Virus record (IMG/VR): IMGVR_UViG_3300036761_001467
Location: 1-43,041 of that record
Reading direction: 5' to 3' (one strand)
Source: a virus
Length of the DNA stretch: 43,041 bases
In this document: piece after piece, positions 3,794-43,041 of the stretch
How positions within the stretch are numbered: position 1 is the first letter of the stretch
Layout: each line of letters starts with the position of its first letter
The notes under the pieces: model-generated
The model's input: the letters and a program-made list of their open reading frames with translations, nothing else
Database searches by the model: none
What the model was told of the DNA's origin: nothing
Translations under genes and position numbers: made by a program

Positions 3794-4011
3794 GGCGTCA
3801 CCGCCGGGTCGTCGTAGAAGCCCAGAAACGGCATCTCGACCCGCCCACACTTCGAGCAGGCGGCGTTGCCGTCCGGCTTCTCGACGTAATCCTCTAGGCC
3901 GCTGACGAACACGTTCTCGTCGGGCGCCACAAACCGTCCACACTGAGGGCAGCGTCGGGAGAAGAGCATCCCGCCGGCGTAGCTCTGATATGGACTCTCG
4001 AAAGAGGTCAT
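3790..4011 (-). CDS. Small four-cysteine zinc-ribbon protein
   Basis: This 73-aa protein starts at ATG 4011, overlapping the helicase-methyltransferase stop as ATGA. CPQCG near residue 21 and CSKCG near residue 52 make a CxxC/CxxC zinc ribbon separated by about 30 residues. It has no other recognisable domain. Tight coupling to the large helicase-methyltransferase gene suggests an accessory or regulatory role in early DNA metabolism, which is inference. Confidence 0.65.
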   Translation of the reverse strand: MTSFESPYQSYAGGMLFSRRCPQCGRFVAPDENVFVSGLEDYVEKPDGNAACSKCGRVEMPFLGFYDDPAVTP

Positions 4012-6269
4012 GGCGTCACCGCCGAGAACAGCGAGCGATGGTCAAGTGTCGCCTCGGCGTGAGCCAGATTCCGGGAGGCGGTGCGCCAGTAGGATTCCTT
4101 CAACTCGATGCCGACGAAACGGCGCTCGAGCCGGACGGCCTCGTGGCCCTCGCTGCCGATTCCGGCGAACGGGCTGAAGACGACCTCGCCGGGTGCGCTC
4201 CAGAGCTTCACGATGCGCTCGATGACCGGCAGCTGTAGCGGGCAGATGTGGCGCTCGTCGGCGGATTCGCGGGCGACAGTGACGTTGAGCACGTCGGTCT
4301 CCGAGATCCCGTCTCCATCGGGGGACCAGTCCTGCGCGTACCAGACCGGACGCGCCCACCGTATCCACTCCTCCTGCGTGACCCAGCCGCTCGGGTTGCC
4401 GTACTTCTCCGAGACTCCGGCGCGGATGGGGCTCGCGTTGTCCCCGTCCTTGCGGAAGTGCAAGACCCAGTCCGGCAGCGCGACGTGCATCATCGACGAG
4501 TCCGTGGCCAGCGTCTTGAACAGAAGCCCACGGTCCTTGGTGCGGATGGCCTTCACTTGCGGGTTCTTGTCGATGGTGATCTCGCCGTAGTAGCGCCAGC
4601 CCGCGTCCTGCATCATCTCGATGGTGCGGCCCCTGAAGTCCTTGAGGCCCGCGAATCCGTCCGAGTTGATGTGGGCGACGTACTGCGTCAGGTGCACGAA
4701 CGCGGAGCGACCCGGCCGGGTGATGCGGAGAAGTTCCGGGGCCAGATAGCCGAAGTGCGCCATGAGGTCGTCGATGCCCTTCGCGTTGCCGATGTCGCGC
4801 ACGCTGTTCGAGTAGGTGTACATACCGGGGAACGGCGGACTGAAGACGGACAGGTCGACCGATTCGGTGTCGACCTTCTTCGTGACCTCGACGCAATCCC
4901 CGAGGTAGAGCGTCCACGCGCCGCCCTCGACGACGTCCTCGCGGTACTCGGCGTCCTGCCTGGTCGCGCGACCAGCGACGGCGTCGTGCGTGAACTTGAC
5001 GATCTGCGCCATCGTCTTGGTGGCCTCGCGCTCCTTCCGCTTGACGTTCTGCACTACGGCCCCCTCCGCGTCCGAGGTCACGACGTAGGCCGTGACGGGC
5101 TTGTCCTGCCCGAAGCGCCAGCAGCGGCGCAGGGCCTGGTAGAACTGCTCGTAGGAATCCGAGAGGCCGACAAACGCCATGTCGGAGCAGTGCTGCCAGT
5201 TCATCCCGAACCCGGCGATGGACGGCTTCGTCACAAGGACGCGCACGTTGCCGGCGGCGAAATCGAGCATGGCCTTGGCCTTGTGCTCGGGCGAGTCGGA
5301 GCCGCGCACCTCGACGGCGTCGGGGATGGCGTCGGCGAGGGCCTCGGACTCGGCGTTGAGGTCGCACCAGCAAAGGAAGGGGCGGTCAGTGCCGTTCGCC
5401 AGATCGGTCGCCGCCTGTACGCGGTTGCCGAGCGAGGCGCGGCGGGCTCGCCTGCGTTCCTGAATCCCGATGCGCTCGCTGGTGAAGAGGGCGTCAGGTG
5501 TGATGTTCTCGCCCTCGACCACGACCTCGCGGATGTCCAGTGCGGGCAACTCGAAACGACCGTCAGGGAATCCGAGGTCTGACGGCTTCCGCATGGCCAC
5601 GGACCATGTCGCCATCCAGCGGTAGAAGTCCTCGTGCGAGTGGCCCTTGAGCCGCCACCGCGTGGTCGTGCCGTCGGTCGTGAAGTAGAGCGCCTTGACC
5701 TCGCTCTCCGTCATCACGCCGAGATACTCCGCGTGGTTGCAGAGTTCGGCAGGGTCGTTCGGGGCGGGCGTCGCAGTGCAGGCCAGCCGAAACGGGATGC
5801 GCTCGGCGAAGGCGATGACCTCGGTGCGGGTCTTGCCGTCGTAACTCTTGAGGATGGATGACTCGTCGAGCACGATGCCAGCGAGCAGGTCGGGGGAGAA
5901 GTGGCGCAACATCTCGTAGTTCGTGATGTTCACGCCCAGCGTGACGTCTTCGCCCGTTCGGCAGACGTTCACGGGAACGGAGAACTTGTCGCCCTCGCGC
6001 GCGGTCTGCTCGGCTACTGCTAGCGGCGCGACGATGAGGACGATGCCGTCCCGCCGCTCGCATACCAGCCGCGCCCACTCCAACTGCATCGGTGTCTTGC
6101 CGAGACCGCAGTCGGCGAAGATGGCGGACCTACCCTTCTCGCAGGCCCAGGCCACGAGGGCGCGCTGGAAGTCGAACAGTTGCGGATTGATTGCGGACTC
6201 GGCGACCTTGAAGCCGTCGCCGTGATCCATCATGGCGCGGGCCTCGAGGAAGGCGGCGTAGTCGCTCAT
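4008..6269 (-). CDS. Snf2-type helicase fused to N-type DNA methyltransferase
   Basis: This 753-aa protein starts at ATG 6269 (ATGA overlap), preferred over a GTG 14 codons upstream. Residues about 25-430 are a superfamily 2, Snf2-like ATPase: Walker A DCGLGKT (about 54-59), DESS box (about 135-138), TATP (about 165-168) and a motif VI QALRRCWRFGQ (about 378-388). Residues about 440-753 are a class β amino-methyltransferase: catalytic SPPF (about 477-480) precedes the AdoMet motif FSPFAGIGS (about 698-706). No nuclease domain is present. It probably translocates on DNA and methylates adenine N6 or cytosine N4. Roles could be protection from host restriction or replication/recombination; the specificity cannot be read from sequence. 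Confidence 0.9.
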   Translation of the reverse strand: MSDYAAFLEARAMMDHGDGFKVAESAINPQLFDFQRALVAWACEKGRSAIFADCGLGKTPMQLEWARLVCERRDGIVLIVAPLAVAEQTAREGDKFSVPVNVCRTGEDVTLGVNITNYEMLRHFSPDLLAGIVLDESSILKSYDGKTRTEVIAFAERIPFRLACTATPAPNDPAELCNHAEYLGVMTESEVKALYFTTDGTTTRWRLKGHSHEDFYRWMATWSVAMRKPSDLGFPDGRFELPALDIREVVVEGENITPDALFTSERIGIQERRRARRASLGNRVQAATDLANGTDRPFLCWCDLNAESEALADAIPDAVEVRGSDSPEHKAKAMLDFAAGNVRVLVTKPSIAGFGMNWQHCSDMAFVGLSDSYEQFYQALRRCWRFGQDKPVTAYVVTSDAEGAVVQNVKRKEREATKTMAQIVKFTHDAVAGRATRQDAEYREDVVEGGAWTLYLGDCVEVTKKVDTESVDLSVFSPPFPGMYTYSNSVRDIGNAKGIDDLMAHFGYLAPELLRITRPGRSAFVHLTQYVAHINSDGFAGLKDFRGRTIEMMQDAGWRYYGEITIDKNPQVKAIRTKDRGLLFKTLATDSSMMHVALPDWVLHFRKDGDNASPIRAGVSEKYGNPSGWVTQEEWIRWARPVWYAQDWSPDGDGISETDVLNVTVARESADERHICPLQLPVIERIVKLWSAPGEVVFSPFAGIGSEGHEAVRLERRFVGIELKESYWRTASRNLAHAEATLDHRSLFSAVTP

Positions 6270-6589
6270 CCCGGCCCCCACGTGTCCGAGTACGCCCGCC
6301 GCGTCGGGCACTTGAGGTGCGGGTAGTCACGATTGAGCAGGCGCGCCAGGTCTGACGAGAGGTGGTCGTTCACGAGCACCGGCTCGTGGTCGCGTCTCGT
6401 CAGGCCGAGACGGCTCGCGAAGTGTGGCCGGCGCAGCAGGCACAGATAGAGCCGCGTCGACGGGGCGATGCCCTGCAGGCGGTCCTCATGAGCCCACGCG
6501 ACGATGACTCGCCAAGCCTGCGGGTTGCGGTATCGCCAGGCGAGGGCGTCAGTCAGAGGATCCACCGTGATGGTGAGCTGCTCGCTCAT
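6266..6589 (-). CDS. Hypothetical 107-aa early protein
   Basis: The ATG at 6589 is preceded by an in-frame GTG at 6592 immediately after the upstream TGA; either may be used. The N-terminus is β-rich (EQLTITVDPLTDAL), followed by helices (WRVIVAWAHEDRL, STRLYLCLLRRPHFASRLG) and a basic tail. The stop overlaps the helicase-methyltransferase start as ATGA. I do not recognise a family. It lies between the annealing-protein candidate and the helicase fusion. Confidence 0.6.
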   Translation of the reverse strand: MSEQLTITVDPLTDALAWRYRNPQAWRVIVAWAHEDRLQGIAPSTRLYLCLLRRPHFASRLGLTRRDHEPVLVNDHLSSDLARLLNRDYPHLKCPTRRAYSDTWGPG

Positions 6590-38223: not shown

Positions 38224-38843
38224 CCGTTGCCCTGCACGTCGAACAGGTAGGGCGTGTACGGCGGCGAGTAGCCACGGCCGGCAGGGATGGACTCGAGACG
38301 CAGACCACGCTCGTCCAGCATGTAGTCGAACCCACGCGCCTTGTTGTCCCACGTGTTCGCGATGCCGTGCACGCGCGCCCTCTCGGCGCGGTTCGCCGGG
38401 TCGATCATCTTCAAGTGGTAGATGTTGAGGTCGATCGTCCGCGTCGGGTCGGCCGCCTTGATCCGCCGCTTGCCCGGGCGAAAGAACCTCGTGTGGCCCT
38501 TGCTCCCCCAGAAGCTGTCGACGCGGTAGGCGTCGGGCGTCCACATCTCGCGCAGGTGCAGGCGGTAGCGACCGGGCGCACGGCGGCTCAGCCGGCGCAG
38601 GACACGGGCGCCCCGATCCTCGAGCCGCTCGTCGGGCGCCGTCCAGTAAATCCAGTCGGGCTCCATCTCGAGGGCGATGGCGCGCAGGTCCGCGTTGCGT
38701 TGGGCACGCGGGCTCCACAGGTCCGAGCGTCCGCGCTCGTCGAGCTCGGCGAAGCCGTCCACCCACGAGAGGTTCTCGCGCAGCTGGTCGACCAGCCAGT
38801 CGGGCTCGTAGCGGTAGGCGAAGGCGGCGATGATGCGCGGCAT
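38220..38843 (-). CDS. GT-A type glycosyltransferase-like protein
   Basis: This 207-aa protein starts at ATG 38843. It begins with the GT-A Rossmann-like strand (RIIAAFAYRYEPDWLVDQLRENLSWVDGFAELDE) and has WSPRAQRNADLRAIALEMEPDWIYWTAPDERLEDRG, where the 'Asp-x-x-x-x-x-Asp' region and 'PDER' suit a family-2-like donor site. The C-terminal part (LNIYHLKMIDPANRAERARVHG... FDYMLDERG) agrees with phage GT2-like proteins. It sits between integrase and acyltransferase and could glycosylate virion or host surface (lysogenic conversion). Confidence 0.7.
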   Translation of the reverse strand: MPRIIAAFAYRYEPDWLVDQLRENLSWVDGFAELDERGRSDLWSPRAQRNADLRAIALEMEPDWIYWTAPDERLEDRGARVLRRLSRRAPGRYRLHLREMWTPDAYRVDSFWGSKGHTRFFRPGKRRIKAADPTRTIDLNIYHLKMIDPANRAERARVHGIANTWDNKARGFDYMLDERGLRLESIPAGRGYSPPYTPYLFDVQGNG

Positions 38844-38880
38844 CGTTCAAGGATGCCGTCTTCGTCACGCGGCCCGGTGC

Positions 38881-38886
38881 TATGAT
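38881..38886 (+). promoter_or_regulatory. Integrase -10 element (leaderless-type)
   Basis: TATGAT lies 8 bases before the integrase ATG at 38895. The -35 region (about 38858) is not consensus. The spacing implies a leaderless mRNA, and a weak -35 suggests regulation or an activator. Confidence 0.45.
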
Positions 38887-38894
38887 GCCGGGCG

Positions 38895-40256
38895 ATGAAG
38901 GGGGAACTGACTGGCCGGGTCCGGCCCGTCCTCGAAGACGGCCGCGCAGTCCGGGGCAAGTACCAGCTCGTCGTCAACCTGCCGTCCCTGCCCGTGCTGG
39001 ACGATCTCGGCAAGGCGGTTCTCGACGAGCAGGGCGAACCGCGGCGCCGCTACCCTGAGACGACGAAGCTCGTCAGCGCCTCGGGCGTGAAGGATTCGCA
39101 GCGTCAGCTGCAAGCGTGGGTCGCCGAGCTCGAGGCGCACAACTGCGTCGACCCCGAGCGCCTCACAGTGGCCGGCCTGGCGGCTCTCTACCTGGCGGCC
39201 GCCAAGGAGGAGCTGCGCGCCGTCAGCTGCGATACCTACGCGCGAAACCTGCGCCTCCACATCCTGCCGGCGCTCGGCGAGATGCTGGCGCGCGACCTGC
39301 GCCGTCACCACCTGTCACGCTACTACACGGACAAGCGCGCGACCCTCGCCGAGACCACGGTCTACCATCACGCCACGGCGATCAGCGCGATGTTCACCTG
39401 GGGCGAGGGTGAGGGCTACGTCGGGCAGAACCCGGCCCGGCGCGTGAAGAAGAGTTCGAAGCCGCGCCTCGTCGTGCGGCCGCGGCGCAGGGTATGGGAG
39501 ATGAGTGAGATCGTCGAGACCGTGATCGCAGCGCGCAAGACGCAGCTGCACCTGGCCGTGCTGCTGGCCGGCCTCGCCGGCCTGCGCGCAGGCGAGATCT
39601 GCGCCTTGCGGCGCGCCGACCTCGAGCTGGACCGCGGGTACTGCCGCGTCATCCACACCGTCGAGGAGACGGGCAGCTCGGCGGGCAGCGACCGTCGCCT
39701 CGTCGAGTACCCGCCGAAGGGCGGACCCGGCGTCGTGCCGCTGCCACGCTTCGCCTGCGACGAGCTCCGCAAGGCGTTCGCCGCCCAGGACGAGATGCGC
39801 CTCGCGCGGCCGGGCTGGAACCGCGAGGGCTGGGTCCTGCCCAAGGTCGACGGCGCACAGATGTGGCCCTCCACGCTCAAGGGCCAGTGGGCGCGCTGGC
39901 TCGCCGGGCACCGCCGGCGCCTGCGCAAGCGCCTCGAAGAGGATCTCGGCCGCGAGCTGCACGACGTCGAGCTCCTGCCGCGCCTCTCACTCCACGGCCT
40001 GCGCGACTCCTACGGCTCGGACGTCTTCAAGCACGAGGGCCTGAAGGCGGCTCAGGAGCGTCTACGCCACAAGGACCCCGTGGTCACGCTGCGGCACTAC
40101 GTCGAGGTCTCGGACCTCGACGAGCTCGCCGGCCTGGCCCGCATGGAGCAGGACGTGATGGCCGCCGTGTCGGCTGCCGAGGCCAGTTCGCCGGGAGATT
40201 CCCGAATCATTCCCGAGAACGTCGTCCGACTCGCTGGACGGTCGGCGAAGAAGTAG
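38895..40256 (+). CDS. int: Tyrosine recombinase integrase
   Basis: This 453-aa protein starts at ATG 38895. It has an arm-binding N-terminal domain (about 1-75), a SAM-like core-binding domain (about 90-185) and a catalytic domain with Arg231 (LRAGE), Lys275 (PPKGG), His367-x-x-Arg370 (HGLR), His392 (LRHKD) and Tyr402 (LRHYVEV). All catalytic residues are present. attP overlaps its 3' end and follows it. It integrates the phage at a tRNA-Arg gene. Confidence 0.95.
   Translation: MKGELTGRVRPVLEDGRAVRGKYQLVVNLPSLPVLDDLGKAVLDEQGEPRRRYPETTKLVSASGVKDSQRQLQAWVAELEAHNCVDPERLTVAGLAALYLAAAKEELRAVSCDTYARNLRLHILPALGEMLARDLRRHHLSRYYTDKRATLAETTVYHHATAISAMFTWGEGEGYVGQNPARRVKKSSKPRLVVRPRRRVWEMSEIVETVIAARKTQLHLAVLLAGLAGLRAGEICALRRADLELDRGYCRVIHTVEETGSSAGSDRRLVEYPPKGGPGVVPLPRFACDELRKAFAAQDEMRLARPGWNREGWVLPKVDGAQMWPSTLKGQWARWLAGHRRRLRKRLEEDLGRELHDVELLPRLSLHGLRDSYGSDVFKHEGLKAAQERLRHKDPVVTLRHYVEVSDLDELAGLARMEQDVMAAVSAAEASSPGDSRIIPENVVRLAGRSAKK
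40196..40216. promoter_or_regulatory. P-arm integrase-binding repeat
   Basis: Within the last codons of int, ATTCCCGA occurs at 40198-40205 and 40209-40216 with an 11-bp spacing. The block AGATTCCCGAATCATTCC matches the right arm copy in 17 of 18 bases. It fits an arm-type site. Confidence 0.65.
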
Positions 40257-40274
40257 CTGCAAAGCCCACAGTTT

Positions 40275-40317
40275 GCCCCCGTAGCTCAGTGGATAGAGCA
40301 CAGGTTTCCTAAACCTG
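40275..40317 (+). other. attP core: 5' half of tRNA-Arg(CCT)
   Basis: Bases 40275-40317 match tRNA positions 1-43: acceptor 5' strand GCCCCCG, D-arm GCTC...GAGC and a full anticodon arm CAGGT-TTCCTAA-ACCTG with anticodon CCT (Arg). No T-arm or acceptor 3' strand follows, so it is not a complete tRNA. The 5-bp inverted repeats around a 7-nt loop fit the strand-exchange region of a tyrosine recombinase. Confidence 0.85.
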
Positions 40318-40417
40318 TGGCCTCCTCTGACGTGGGGCCTTTCTTCCCTGCTAATCGTCCACTTTCCGCCGGACCTGCTGCCCGCAACTGTCGTGCCTGA
40401 GCGTGGAGTCGGCTGCA

Positions 40418-40438
40418 AGATTCCCGAATGATTCCTGA
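40418..40438. promoter_or_regulatory. P'-arm integrase-binding repeat
   Basis: ATTCCCGA at 40420-40427 and ATTCCTGA at 40431-40438 are 11 bp apart, mirroring the left arm. The pair brackets the attP core (62 bp left, 101 bp right). Confidence 0.65.
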
Positions 40439-40448
40439 CCTTCGAGTG

Positions 40449-41054
40449 CTAAGCGGCGCCTACGCCGGGGTTCGTTTTCGGCAGATAGCCCTTGAGCCGG
40501 CACTGCTGTATCAGCTTCGCCGCCTGGTCGGGCCGGAGCCCCAACGCCTCGGCCGTGTCGCGGCCCGGCGATCTACTCCCGGCCTTCCAGAGCTCGCGGT
40601 ATACCGTGGCGACGCACTGGTAGTCGTTGGTCGTGTAGCGGGGACGCTGGCGCGGCTTGCCGCGTGTAGTCTCCAGCCTCGCCGGTTCCAGCTCAGGCAC
40701 GCGGCCGCCCATCCGGCGCGCCAAGTCCTCGAGCATCTCGTCGCTTCTGCGGGTGACTCCCTCGTCGCCCAGCGCGCGTGCCAGCAGCGCGGCGAAGGGG
40801 AAGCGAAGGTGCGCGGCGCGCAGCGGTCGCTCGCGGAGTCTCGCGAACGGGTAGGGGTGCGGCCTGATATCGAGGCCCACGCACTCCGGCCTGCCGGCGA
40901 TCCGCTTCACGTGGAACGACAGACTCCACTCCGAACCGTCCGGGGCCCCCCAGATCGTCCCCGCCTCGTAAGGTTCGCCGCTCTCCGCCAGCACGGCCTG
41001 GCGTGACGTCGCGTCCTCCGGCGTGCCGCTCATTGGCTGTCCTGGCGTCTTCAT
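40449..41054 (-). CDS. Actinobacterial-type HTH protein, last gene of the early operon
   Basis: This 201-aa protein starts at ATG 41054 (ATGA overlap); a second ATG eight codons in is possible. The C-terminal 55 residues are an HTH (DYQCVATVYRELWKAGSRSPGRDTAEALGLRPDQAAKLIQQCRLKGYLP), a form common in actinobacterial mobile elements. The N-terminal half is mixed β (TIWGAPDGSEWSLSFHVKRIAGRPECVGLDIRP) with a helical segment (RFPFAALLARALGDEGV). It ends beside attP. A regulatory or integration-accessory role is inferred. Confidence 0.7.
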   Translation of the reverse strand: MKTPGQPMSGTPEDATSRQAVLAESGEPYEAGTIWGAPDGSEWSLSFHVKRIAGRPECVGLDIRPHPYPFARLRERPLRAAHLRFPFAALLARALGDEGVTRRSDEMLEDLARRMGGRVPELEPARLETTRGKPRQRPRYTTNDYQCVATVYRELWKAGSRSPGRDTAEALGLRPDQAAKLIQQCRLKGYLPKTNPGVGAA

Positions 41055-41257
41055 CGCGCGTCCCTCACCTTCTCCAGCGTCTCGATAAGCGCCTGACGCT
41101 GCACGTAGATCATGAGGGGCTCGAGGGCGCGATACGCGCGATGGACGACGGGAATCATGCTCTCAGCCCAGCAACGGGCGGCAGCCTCGACCTCGCGCCA
41201 CTGGCGTCGCCTCAGACGGGCCTCGTGCCGGTAGCTGTACCACTGTTCGCGTGTCAC
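41051..41257 (-). CDS. Small basic hypothetical protein (complete copy)
   Basis: This is the full 68-aa version of the gene truncated at 1-191. Its TGA overlaps the ATG of the HTH gene at 41054 as ATGA, confirming that the two ends of the window join. It begins with GTG at 41257 and is Arg-rich and helical. Confidence 0.6.
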   Translation of the reverse strand: MTREQWYSYRHEARLRRRQWREVEAAARCWAESMIPVVHRAYRALEPLMIYVQRQALIETLEKVRDAR

Positions 41258-41282
41258 GGATTCCCCCTCTCGCAGGCCGACT

Positions 41283-41747
41283 CTACGCGCCGGCGCCGGA
41301 GGATTCCAGCGTCGCCATCTCGAGCTGGCGGACATCTCGCTCAGACCCGCTCCGTTGCCGTCCGTGACGCAGGCCCCGCCTCGTGAAGCGATGCGGCCAG
41401 TCGACCAGCTCGTAGCCTGCTTCGCGCTCCACGGCGTGGATCCGCATGCGGTGGCGCCGGCGCAGCTTCCCCACGGCCTTGTTGACGTCGATCGCGTCGG
41501 CGGTGATGCCCCGGGCGGCAAGCGCGACCTGCACGTGGACGCGGCCCTCGCCGAGCGCCTTTCCCATCAGCAGGACGCTCGCCACGGCGCACAGCAGGTC
41601 GTCCGGGCCAAGGGTGCGCGCCGACCCGGCTGAGCCCGCCTGCCGCGCGCAGGCGGCGCAGAGGCAGTCCGGCTCGTCTGCGGCCCGGTAGCGCGACAGG
41701 AGGGCTCCGCAGGACGCGCAGCGGGGCCTCTCGGCGACGCTCGTCAC
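41283..41747 (-). CDS. Zinc-ribbon protein (second reading of 217-681)
   Basis: Same gene as 217-681, read again because the window passes the genome's start point. See that entry for domains and start choice. Confidence 0.6.
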   Translation of the reverse strand: MTSVAERPRCASCGALLSRYRAADEPDCLCAACARQAGSAGSARTLGPDDLLCAVASVLLMGKALGEGRVHVQVALAARGITADAIDVNKAVGKLRRRHRMRIHAVEREAGYELVDWPHRFTRRGLRHGRQRSGSERDVRQLEMATLESSGAGA

Positions 41748-42037
41748 CGGCGGCAGCCGTTCACGAGGTCGACGAACTCGGCGGTGCTGCGGATGACCCA
41801 GGTGTGGACGTGCTGGTCGGCGCGCTTCCACTGCGCCAGCACCTGGCCCGGTGAGAGCTTGCCCTTCGGCGTCTTGAACTCGACCGGCTGGCACTTGCCC
41901 GCACAGTAGAGGAAGGCGTCGGGGAGGCCCACCGTCGTGCCCGATCCGTCGGCGCGGTGCTGCCCGGCGACCTCGAGGTAGGCGTTCATGGCCCGCGCGA
42001 CCTTGAGGCACTCGGAGACGAGCTGCTTCTCAGTCAC
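41744..42037 (-). CDS. VRR-NUC nuclease (second reading of 678-971)
   Basis: Same gene as 678-971, read again in the duplicated end. The motif residues are unchanged. Confidence 0.85.
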   Translation of the reverse strand: MTEKQLVSECLKVARAMNAYLEVAGQHRADGSGTTVGLPDAFLYCAGKCQPVEFKTPKGKLSPGQVLAQWKRADQHVHTWVIRSTAEFVDLVNGCRR

Positions 42038-42320
42038 CGTTGCCGCCGGTGAAGTAGACCGTGACGAGTACGGGCGGACGCTTCGCTGAGCGCCACACGA
42101 CGAGGCGCACCGGCCCGGCGTCGTAGAGCTCTTCGCCGGTGGCGGTGCGGCCGGAGAGCTGCGCCCCGGCGGCGAGGCGCTTGAGGGCGTCGTGCGCCCC
42201 GCTGCGGCGTGCCCCGGGGACGCGGGTGAGGTAGGAATCGACCGCGTGCCAGGTGACCTCACAGGCGCCGAGACGGCGGCGGTGCCGACGTCGCGGATGG
42301 ACCCAGGCGGATGACCTCAA
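42030..42320 (-). CDS. Hypothetical TTG-start protein (second reading of 964-1254)
   Basis: Same gene as 964-1254, including the TTGA junction at its start. Confidence 0.55.
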   Translation of the reverse strand: MRSSAWVHPRRRHRRRLGACEVTWHAVDSYLTRVPGARRSGAHDALKRLAAGAQLSGRTATGEELYDAGPVRLVVWRSAKRPPVLVTVYFTGGNGD

Positions 42321-42643
42321 CGGTCGCCGCGCTGGAAGTGGACGCAGCCGAAGTCGGGCGGCACGATCGGGAACGCCGGCACGATCGGGAACGCCGTGTC
42401 GAAGGCGTCGCTGACGGCCTCGTTCGTGCACTCGGCGCCGTACATGAAGGCGCACGCCTCGTCGAAGGCGTCGCTGACGGCCTCGTTCGTGCACTCGGCG
42501 CCGTACATGAAGGCGCACGCCTCGCAACGCACGACGGGGGCGGCGTCGAGGATGGCGAAGACGGCCTTGTTGAGGACGTTGCCCCGGTAATCCAGCGCCG
42601 TCCGTAGCTCGTTCCTGCTGATGAGGTCGTCGGTGGCGGTCAT
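42317..42643 (-). CDS. Duplicated-core zinc protein (second reading of 1251-1577)
   Basis: Same gene as 1251-1577, including both internal tandem repeats, so the repeats are present in both readings. Confidence 0.75.
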   Translation of the reverse strand: MTATDDLISRNELRTALDYRGNVLNKAVFAILDAAPVVRCEACAFMYGAECTNEAVSDAFDEACAFMYGAECTNEAVSDAFDTAFPIVPAFPIVPPDFGCVHFQRGDR

Positions 42644-43041
42644 GCGACCTCCTCCTCGGCGGCGAGGATGCACAGGCGCAGACCGTGGTCGCGCCGGCTG
42701 ACGCGCTCGTGCAGGTTCCGCTCCCGGCCGTCCTCCTCGCCGCTGACGATGAAGTCGGCGAGGTCGCCGGTGTAGCCGGAGAACGTGACGTAGTCGGCGA
42801 CCAGCTCGAGGTAGGTCGTGTTCTCACCGATCTCGGTGACGTGCGGCTCCGGGTCGTTCGGCCAGAGGACCACGACGCAGGGAGACTTGGTGTCCGTCGC
42901 CCGCTGCTGCGCCAGGCCCGCCACGGCGGCGTCGAACTCCGCCAGGGCTTCGACTGCTTCGGACAGCTTCTCTTCGGCCTTGCCGATCGACTTCTCCCGG
43001 CGGTCGACGTCTGCTTCGAGGCGCCTGCGGACGACCGCGAG
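42640..43041 (-). CDS. Coiled-coil hypothetical protein, 5' end cut by window edge
   Basis: Same gene as 1574-2014 with its first 13 or so codons beyond the right edge. The complete copy is near the left edge. Confidence 0.65.
   Translation of the reverse strand, partial: LAVVRRRLEADVDRREKSIGKAEEKLSEAVEALAEFDAAVAGLAQQRATDTKSPCVVVLWPNDPEPHVTEIGENTTYLELVADYVTFSGYTGDLADFIVSGEEDGRERNLHERVSRRDHGLRLCILAAEEEVA

Follow-up and report, generated by a model that had tools for sequence, protein, structure and literature searches.

Genome organization and the half-tRNA core

The window (the whole 43,041-nt stretch of viral DNA analyzed here, an IMG/VR virus record) begins and ends with the same 1,975 nt, so the contig closes as a circle of 41,066 bp, with a GC content of 69%. 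A 63-bp tandem duplication at 1314–1458 and 42380–42524 is seen twice because it falls inside this terminal identity. A single frame of 767 aa on the minus strand (4008–6311) joins an N6/N4 DNA methylase domain to SNF2-type/helicase C-terminal motifs, a fusion unusual for a phage. The features of the integration region and the contig ends are as follows:

1–1975, no strand assigned: terminal identity, left copy, equal to 41067–43041 over 1,975 nt
38881–38886, plus strand: putative −10 element of int, TATGAT, separated by 8 bp from the int start codon, suggesting a near-leaderless layout
38895–40256, plus strand: tyrosine integrase gene (int), 453 aa, with motifs HGLRDSYG and RHKDPVVTLRHY in the translation
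40198–40216, plus strand: P-arm candidate, ATTCCCGAATCATTCCCGA, within the 3′ coding end of int, two ATTCCYGA units
40275–40317, plus strand: probable attP core, tRNA-Arg(CCT) nucleotides 1–43, with the anticodon loop at 40306–40312 and the anticodon CCT at 40308–40310
40420–40438, plus strand: P′-arm candidate, ATTCCCGAATGATTCCTGA, two ATTCCYGA units
41067–43041, no strand assigned: terminal identity, right copy, equal to 1–1975

The 43 nt at 40275–40317 read GCCCCCGTAGCTCAGTGGATAGAGCACAGGTTTCCTAAACCTG and comprise the 5′ strand of the acceptor stem, the D arm and the full anticodon arm. Five exact matches were present among the 84,980 genomes searched, and each of them corresponded to nucleotides 1–43 of a complete tRNA-Arg(CCT) recognized by ARAGORN; an exact match of this length to a tRNA is evidently not due to chance. 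All five genomes belong to Actinomycetota (two Coriobacteriales MAGs, Nakamurella and two unclassified actinobacterial MAGs), and we infer an actinobacterial host at the level of the phylum. After nucleotide 43, the sequence continues with GTGTCG in all five genomes but with TGGCCT in the phage, showing that the identity stops exactly at nucleotide 43. The core therefore matches the beginning of a genuine tRNA gene over 43 of 43 nt and stops inside that gene. ARAGORN identified no tRNA in the whole window, and downstream of 40317 there is neither a T arm nor an acceptor 3′ strand, so that the locus does not fit a conventional attP with a 3′ half. The initial annotation had described tRNA positions 1–43, including the complete anticodon arm and lacking the T arm; its coordinates were correct to the base, as the five matches show, and the description was confirmed by these matches and by ARAGORN.

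The integrase and the candidate arm sites

The int product matched PF00589 (E 7.6e-9), PF14659 (E 2.5e-5) and phrog_1 integrase (E 1.3e-39), and the gene looks intact. It reads toward the half-tRNA, and its stop at 40256 lies 18 bp short of the core start at 40275. According to the open reading frame list, the genes to the right of the core are probably encoded on the minus strand, pointing toward the core. Close homologues of the integrase were found neither among phages and viral contigs nor in the 84,980 genomes (scanned with a peptide pattern) or approximately 440 actinobacterial genomes; the nearest relatives, present only in G005 and G004, were about 30% identical. Another phage (G002, locus L005) has a terminase 69% identical to that of the window phage and a different integrase. 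At positions 1–40 of L005, the contig end beside that integrase, there is an apparent tRNA 3′ part running from the anticodon loop to the T arm. Between these related phages, the integration module and the tRNA half appear to have been exchanged.

The direct repeat ATTCCCGAATSATTCCYGA has one copy on each side of the core (40198–40216 and 40420–40438) and is absent elsewhere in the genome. The half-unit ATTCCYGA is present in four copies in the whole window, all within these two sites, and a pair as similar over 22 nt was reached in only 4 of 300 random placements. The paired repeats look as P and P′ arm sites should, and are treated here as candidate arms. With a tyrosine integrase 18 bp away and candidate arm-type repeats on both sides, the locus belongs with the elements that carry a 5′ tRNA fragment, and the half-tRNA is very probably the attP of the circular phage.

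Predicted outcome of integration

We propose that the tyrosine integrase of this temperate actinobacterial phage would use the host tRNA-Arg(CCT) gene as its target, with the crossover in the anticodon arm or next to it. One junction would run from the host promoter through a dead 5′ half into the phage right arm. The other would run from int through a complete tRNA, composed of phage nucleotides 1 to ~43 and host nucleotides 44 to 76, into host DNA. Since int precedes the core and the tRNA reads in the same direction, recombination within the shared 43 nt should place the intact tRNA behind int. Judged by sequence geometry and anatomy, it would have phage DNA upstream. That the attP carries the 5′ half, with the intact tRNA at the integrase end and its upstream DNA coming from the phage, had been proposed in the initial annotation and follows from the sequence. 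An integrated copy of the window phage was found neither in the viral contigs nor in the 84,980 genomes or the ~440 actinobacterial genomes, and its attL and attR are accordingly given as predictions.

Integrated elements and other 5′-half loci

Both junctions were read in three other proviruses. In G403 (43,483 bp), one end consists of a TATAAT-bearing flank, the 5′ half and phage DNA, and the other consists of phage DNA, whose int is divergent and about 93 bp distant, followed by a complete tRNA-Arg(CCT). In G425 and G427 (about 40 kb each), a displaced 5′ half with int beside it marks one end, and the opposite end holds a complete tRNA preceded by phage DNA. Moreover, in G411 a complete tRNA-Arg(CCT) lies about 10 bp behind a co-directional int, which is the junction predicted for the window. 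The 5′ swap is real for the 5′-half class, and the geometry claimed earlier is directly visible in G403, G425 and G427. The check suggested at the outset, reading attL and attR in integrated relatives, gave no junction for the window phage, which we infer from its anatomy to perform the same swap.

Genomes with two copies of tRNA-Arg(CCT) were also inspected; the copies were complete tRNAs, and none was a clear 5′-type provirus. In MAG G253, the end of L171 (C5) and the start of L172 (C13) have a tRNA-Arg(CCT) 3′ half and downstream DNA in common, with differing 5′ halves and upstream DNA. This case of two 5′ halves was rejected, since the genes upstream resemble those of a host and only 19 bp precede the shared motif in the second branch.

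A degenerate search of IMG/VR for the 5′ part of tRNA-Arg(CCT) yielded at least 119 loci, which were sorted using ARAGORN and an integrase profile built for this analysis. Among the loci listed, 16 were called as 5′ half only, and an integrase lay within 600 bp in 10 of these 16. The layout of the window, with int upstream and co-directional and the tRNA-Arg(CCT) 5′ half after it, was found in four (L049, L051, L052 and L107). L051 (G407) is a second circular record, of 58,798 bp with a 50-bp end repeat, in which int ends about 30 bp before the half. When the 3′ half was searched for instead, 22 loci with only that half and an adjacent int were obtained; 10 versus 22, from patterns that differ in stringency, hints only roughly that the 5′ type is not uncommon at tRNA-Arg(CCT). 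Loci with a 5′ half and an adjacent integrase were also found for tRNA-Arg(TCT) and tRNA-Lys(CTT), the latter mostly in one family of viral contigs (L176, L181, L232, L237, L242, L244, L252, L258, L264 and L265), in which a distant integrase-like gene follows the 5′ half after 24–75 bp. In L107 (G419), the 5′ half is followed directly by a 12-nt stretch that is the exact reverse complement of the start of the tRNA (TGCGCCCGTAGC/GCTACGGGCGCA); L130 has a 7-nt version.

One subfamily has int beyond the core, and its half-tRNA is preceded by TTGACR, 17 bp, and then TATCGG, TATCCG, TACCGA or TAACGA. The consensus TTGACR-N17-TAHCSR is present in all five elements of this subfamily (L059, L126, L112, the right end of G425 [L409] and G427 [L410]), and tandem TGTKCCG repeats adjoin it, as compared in an alignment of four of the five. 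These sites look like replacement promoters carried in attP, which would then consist of a promoter plus a half-tRNA. G411 resembles the window in having nothing comparable.

Expression of the rebuilt tRNA

On the int strand, TANNNT occurs at three sites within 38860–40275, including TATGAT at 38881. The last of these before the half-tRNA is at 39363, and none lies between 39369 and 40275. A sigma-70-like promoter scan of 38600–41100 found no site with 0.1 expected; the promoter scans are crude, and promoters of GC-rich actinobacteria are poorly conserved and can be cryptic. Within the 110 bp before the half-tRNA, the best promoter-like site scored only 7/12. As no promoter-like site lies within ~900 bp upstream of the half-tRNA, a lysogen most likely obtains the tRNA by read-through from int. 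The int transcript would continue at its 3′ end into the rebuilt tRNA, which RNase P would then presumably release. Of the two sources named in the initial annotation, a phage promoter or int read-through, the lack of a promoter-like site in these last ~900 bp favors the second.

A possible terminator in which the acceptor strand of the tRNA pairs with phage DNA (fold z −3.5) was considered and rejected: the length of the GCCCC complement is no better than chance (p 0.23), and the complementary stretch is missing from most other half-tRNA elements.

Alternative explanations

Taken as a whole, a 5′-half attP that recombines with the host tRNA-Arg(CCT) gene within or next to its anticodon arm, with expression by int read-through, is an explanation in which we place high confidence. 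The failure to find integrated relatives of the window phage in the searched viral contigs and genomes would also fit a half-tRNA that is a leftover of imprecise excision, or a captured tRNA fragment, with attB elsewhere. However, the 43 nt stand without a single change directly behind int, the paired repeats are unique to the surroundings of the core, and an equal layout recurs in unrelated elements with different tRNA sequences, which together make a leftover very unlikely. Another alternative is tRNA-dependent lysogeny, in which the tRNA gene is lost upon integration and a tRNA carried by the phage takes its place; this is known in actinobacteriophages, with cores of roughly 8–17 bp (PMC10865867). 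A complete cognate tRNA is absent from the window by ARAGORN, and the 43-nt core would rebuild the host tRNA exactly, so this alternative deserves hardly any credence.

A different question is whether the same attP and geometry are combined with a dedicated phage promoter in the 3′ end of int that drives the rebuilt tRNA. The TTGACR-N17-TAHCSR sites before the half-tRNA in the attP of L059, L126 and L112 and in the phage ends of G425 and G427 speak for such a promoter, as does TTGACA-N17-CAAAAT in L049. The window itself provides no counterpart, given the 7/12 best site, the empty scan and the TANNNT-free stretch before the core, and we consider a dedicated promoter there unlikely, although worth keeping in view. 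More speculative, and in our estimate rather improbable, is that the 5′-half attP acts as an integration-state switch, which would provide the host tRNA and at the same time reduce the expression of int once the phage has integrated. Under such a switch, int and the host tRNA would form a single transcription unit in the lysogen only, and RNase P would cut the int message 18 nt past the stop codon once the tRNA is whole; the half-tRNA of the free phage would be no substrate for RNase P and would leave the message uncut. The effect would be comparable to the retroregulation of lambda int by sib.

Relation to known systems

An attP with a 5′ half is uncommon and already known. The Islander collection holds 3,760 islands with a 3′ tRNA fragment versus 159 with a 5′ fragment, 3,919 in total over all tRNAs (PMC4383910), which bears out the earlier statement that most phages carry the 3′ part in attP. 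Islands of the 5′ class share with the window an attP made of the tRNA 5′ part, a rebuilt gene with island DNA upstream and an anticodon-centred site. Conventional 3′-half phages have in common with it a tyrosine integrase, a long identity block and a rebuilt tRNA, but they carry the opposite tRNA half and keep the host promoter. According to a FEMS review, recombinant bacterial tRNA genes keep their original promoter with very few exceptions, whereas the pTN3-like integrases of archaea act on the 5′ half and thereby place expression of the tRNA under the integrase promoter, a situation seldom met in bacteria (PMC8371274). In pTN3, the tRNA loses its original promoter when it is rebuilt (PMC5495485). 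The Thermococcales pTN3/TKV4-type elements resemble the window in that the shared stretch is the 5′ half of the tRNA gene, 41 bp there (PMC5495485; PMC8371274). However, their attP lies inside int, which is split by integration, whereas the window has a bacterial host and a complete int that ends before the core. Fionnbharth and other phages with tRNA-dependent lysogeny likewise use a tyrosine integrase and a tRNA attB and make tRNA expression in the lysogen dependent on the phage, but they have a short core, leave the host tRNA unrebuilt and carry a whole tRNA (PMC10865867).

To these known cases we add about ten further examples of the 5′-half arrangement and three inserted phages. What appears new from the sequences is the subfamily with a conserved promoter-like motif (TTGACR-N17-TA) before the half-tRNA, which the window lacks. 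Our literature search found no study on the expression of the rebuilt bacterial tRNA in 5′-fragment islands.

Implications for host and prophage

That the prophage is tied to host fitness through tRNA-Arg(CCT) is doubtful. We do not endorse such a tie because AGG is rare (3.0 per 1000 codons in 15 phage open reading frames), because tRNA-Arg(UCU), which can in principle read AGG by wobble, may cover it, and because precise excision restores the host gene. A safer prediction is that, if the tRNA matters, deletions of the int end would be selected against in decaying prophages of the 5′ type.

The arrangement in the window offers a clear-cut example from bacteria of a prophage that would commandeer the promoter side of a tRNA gene of its host. 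The collected set splits into carriers of the promoter-like motif and elements like the window, which apparently rely on int transcription. This split makes a neglected question testable, namely how the rebuilt tRNA is expressed in lysogens of 5′-type phages, and also whether selection preserves the int end of decaying prophages.
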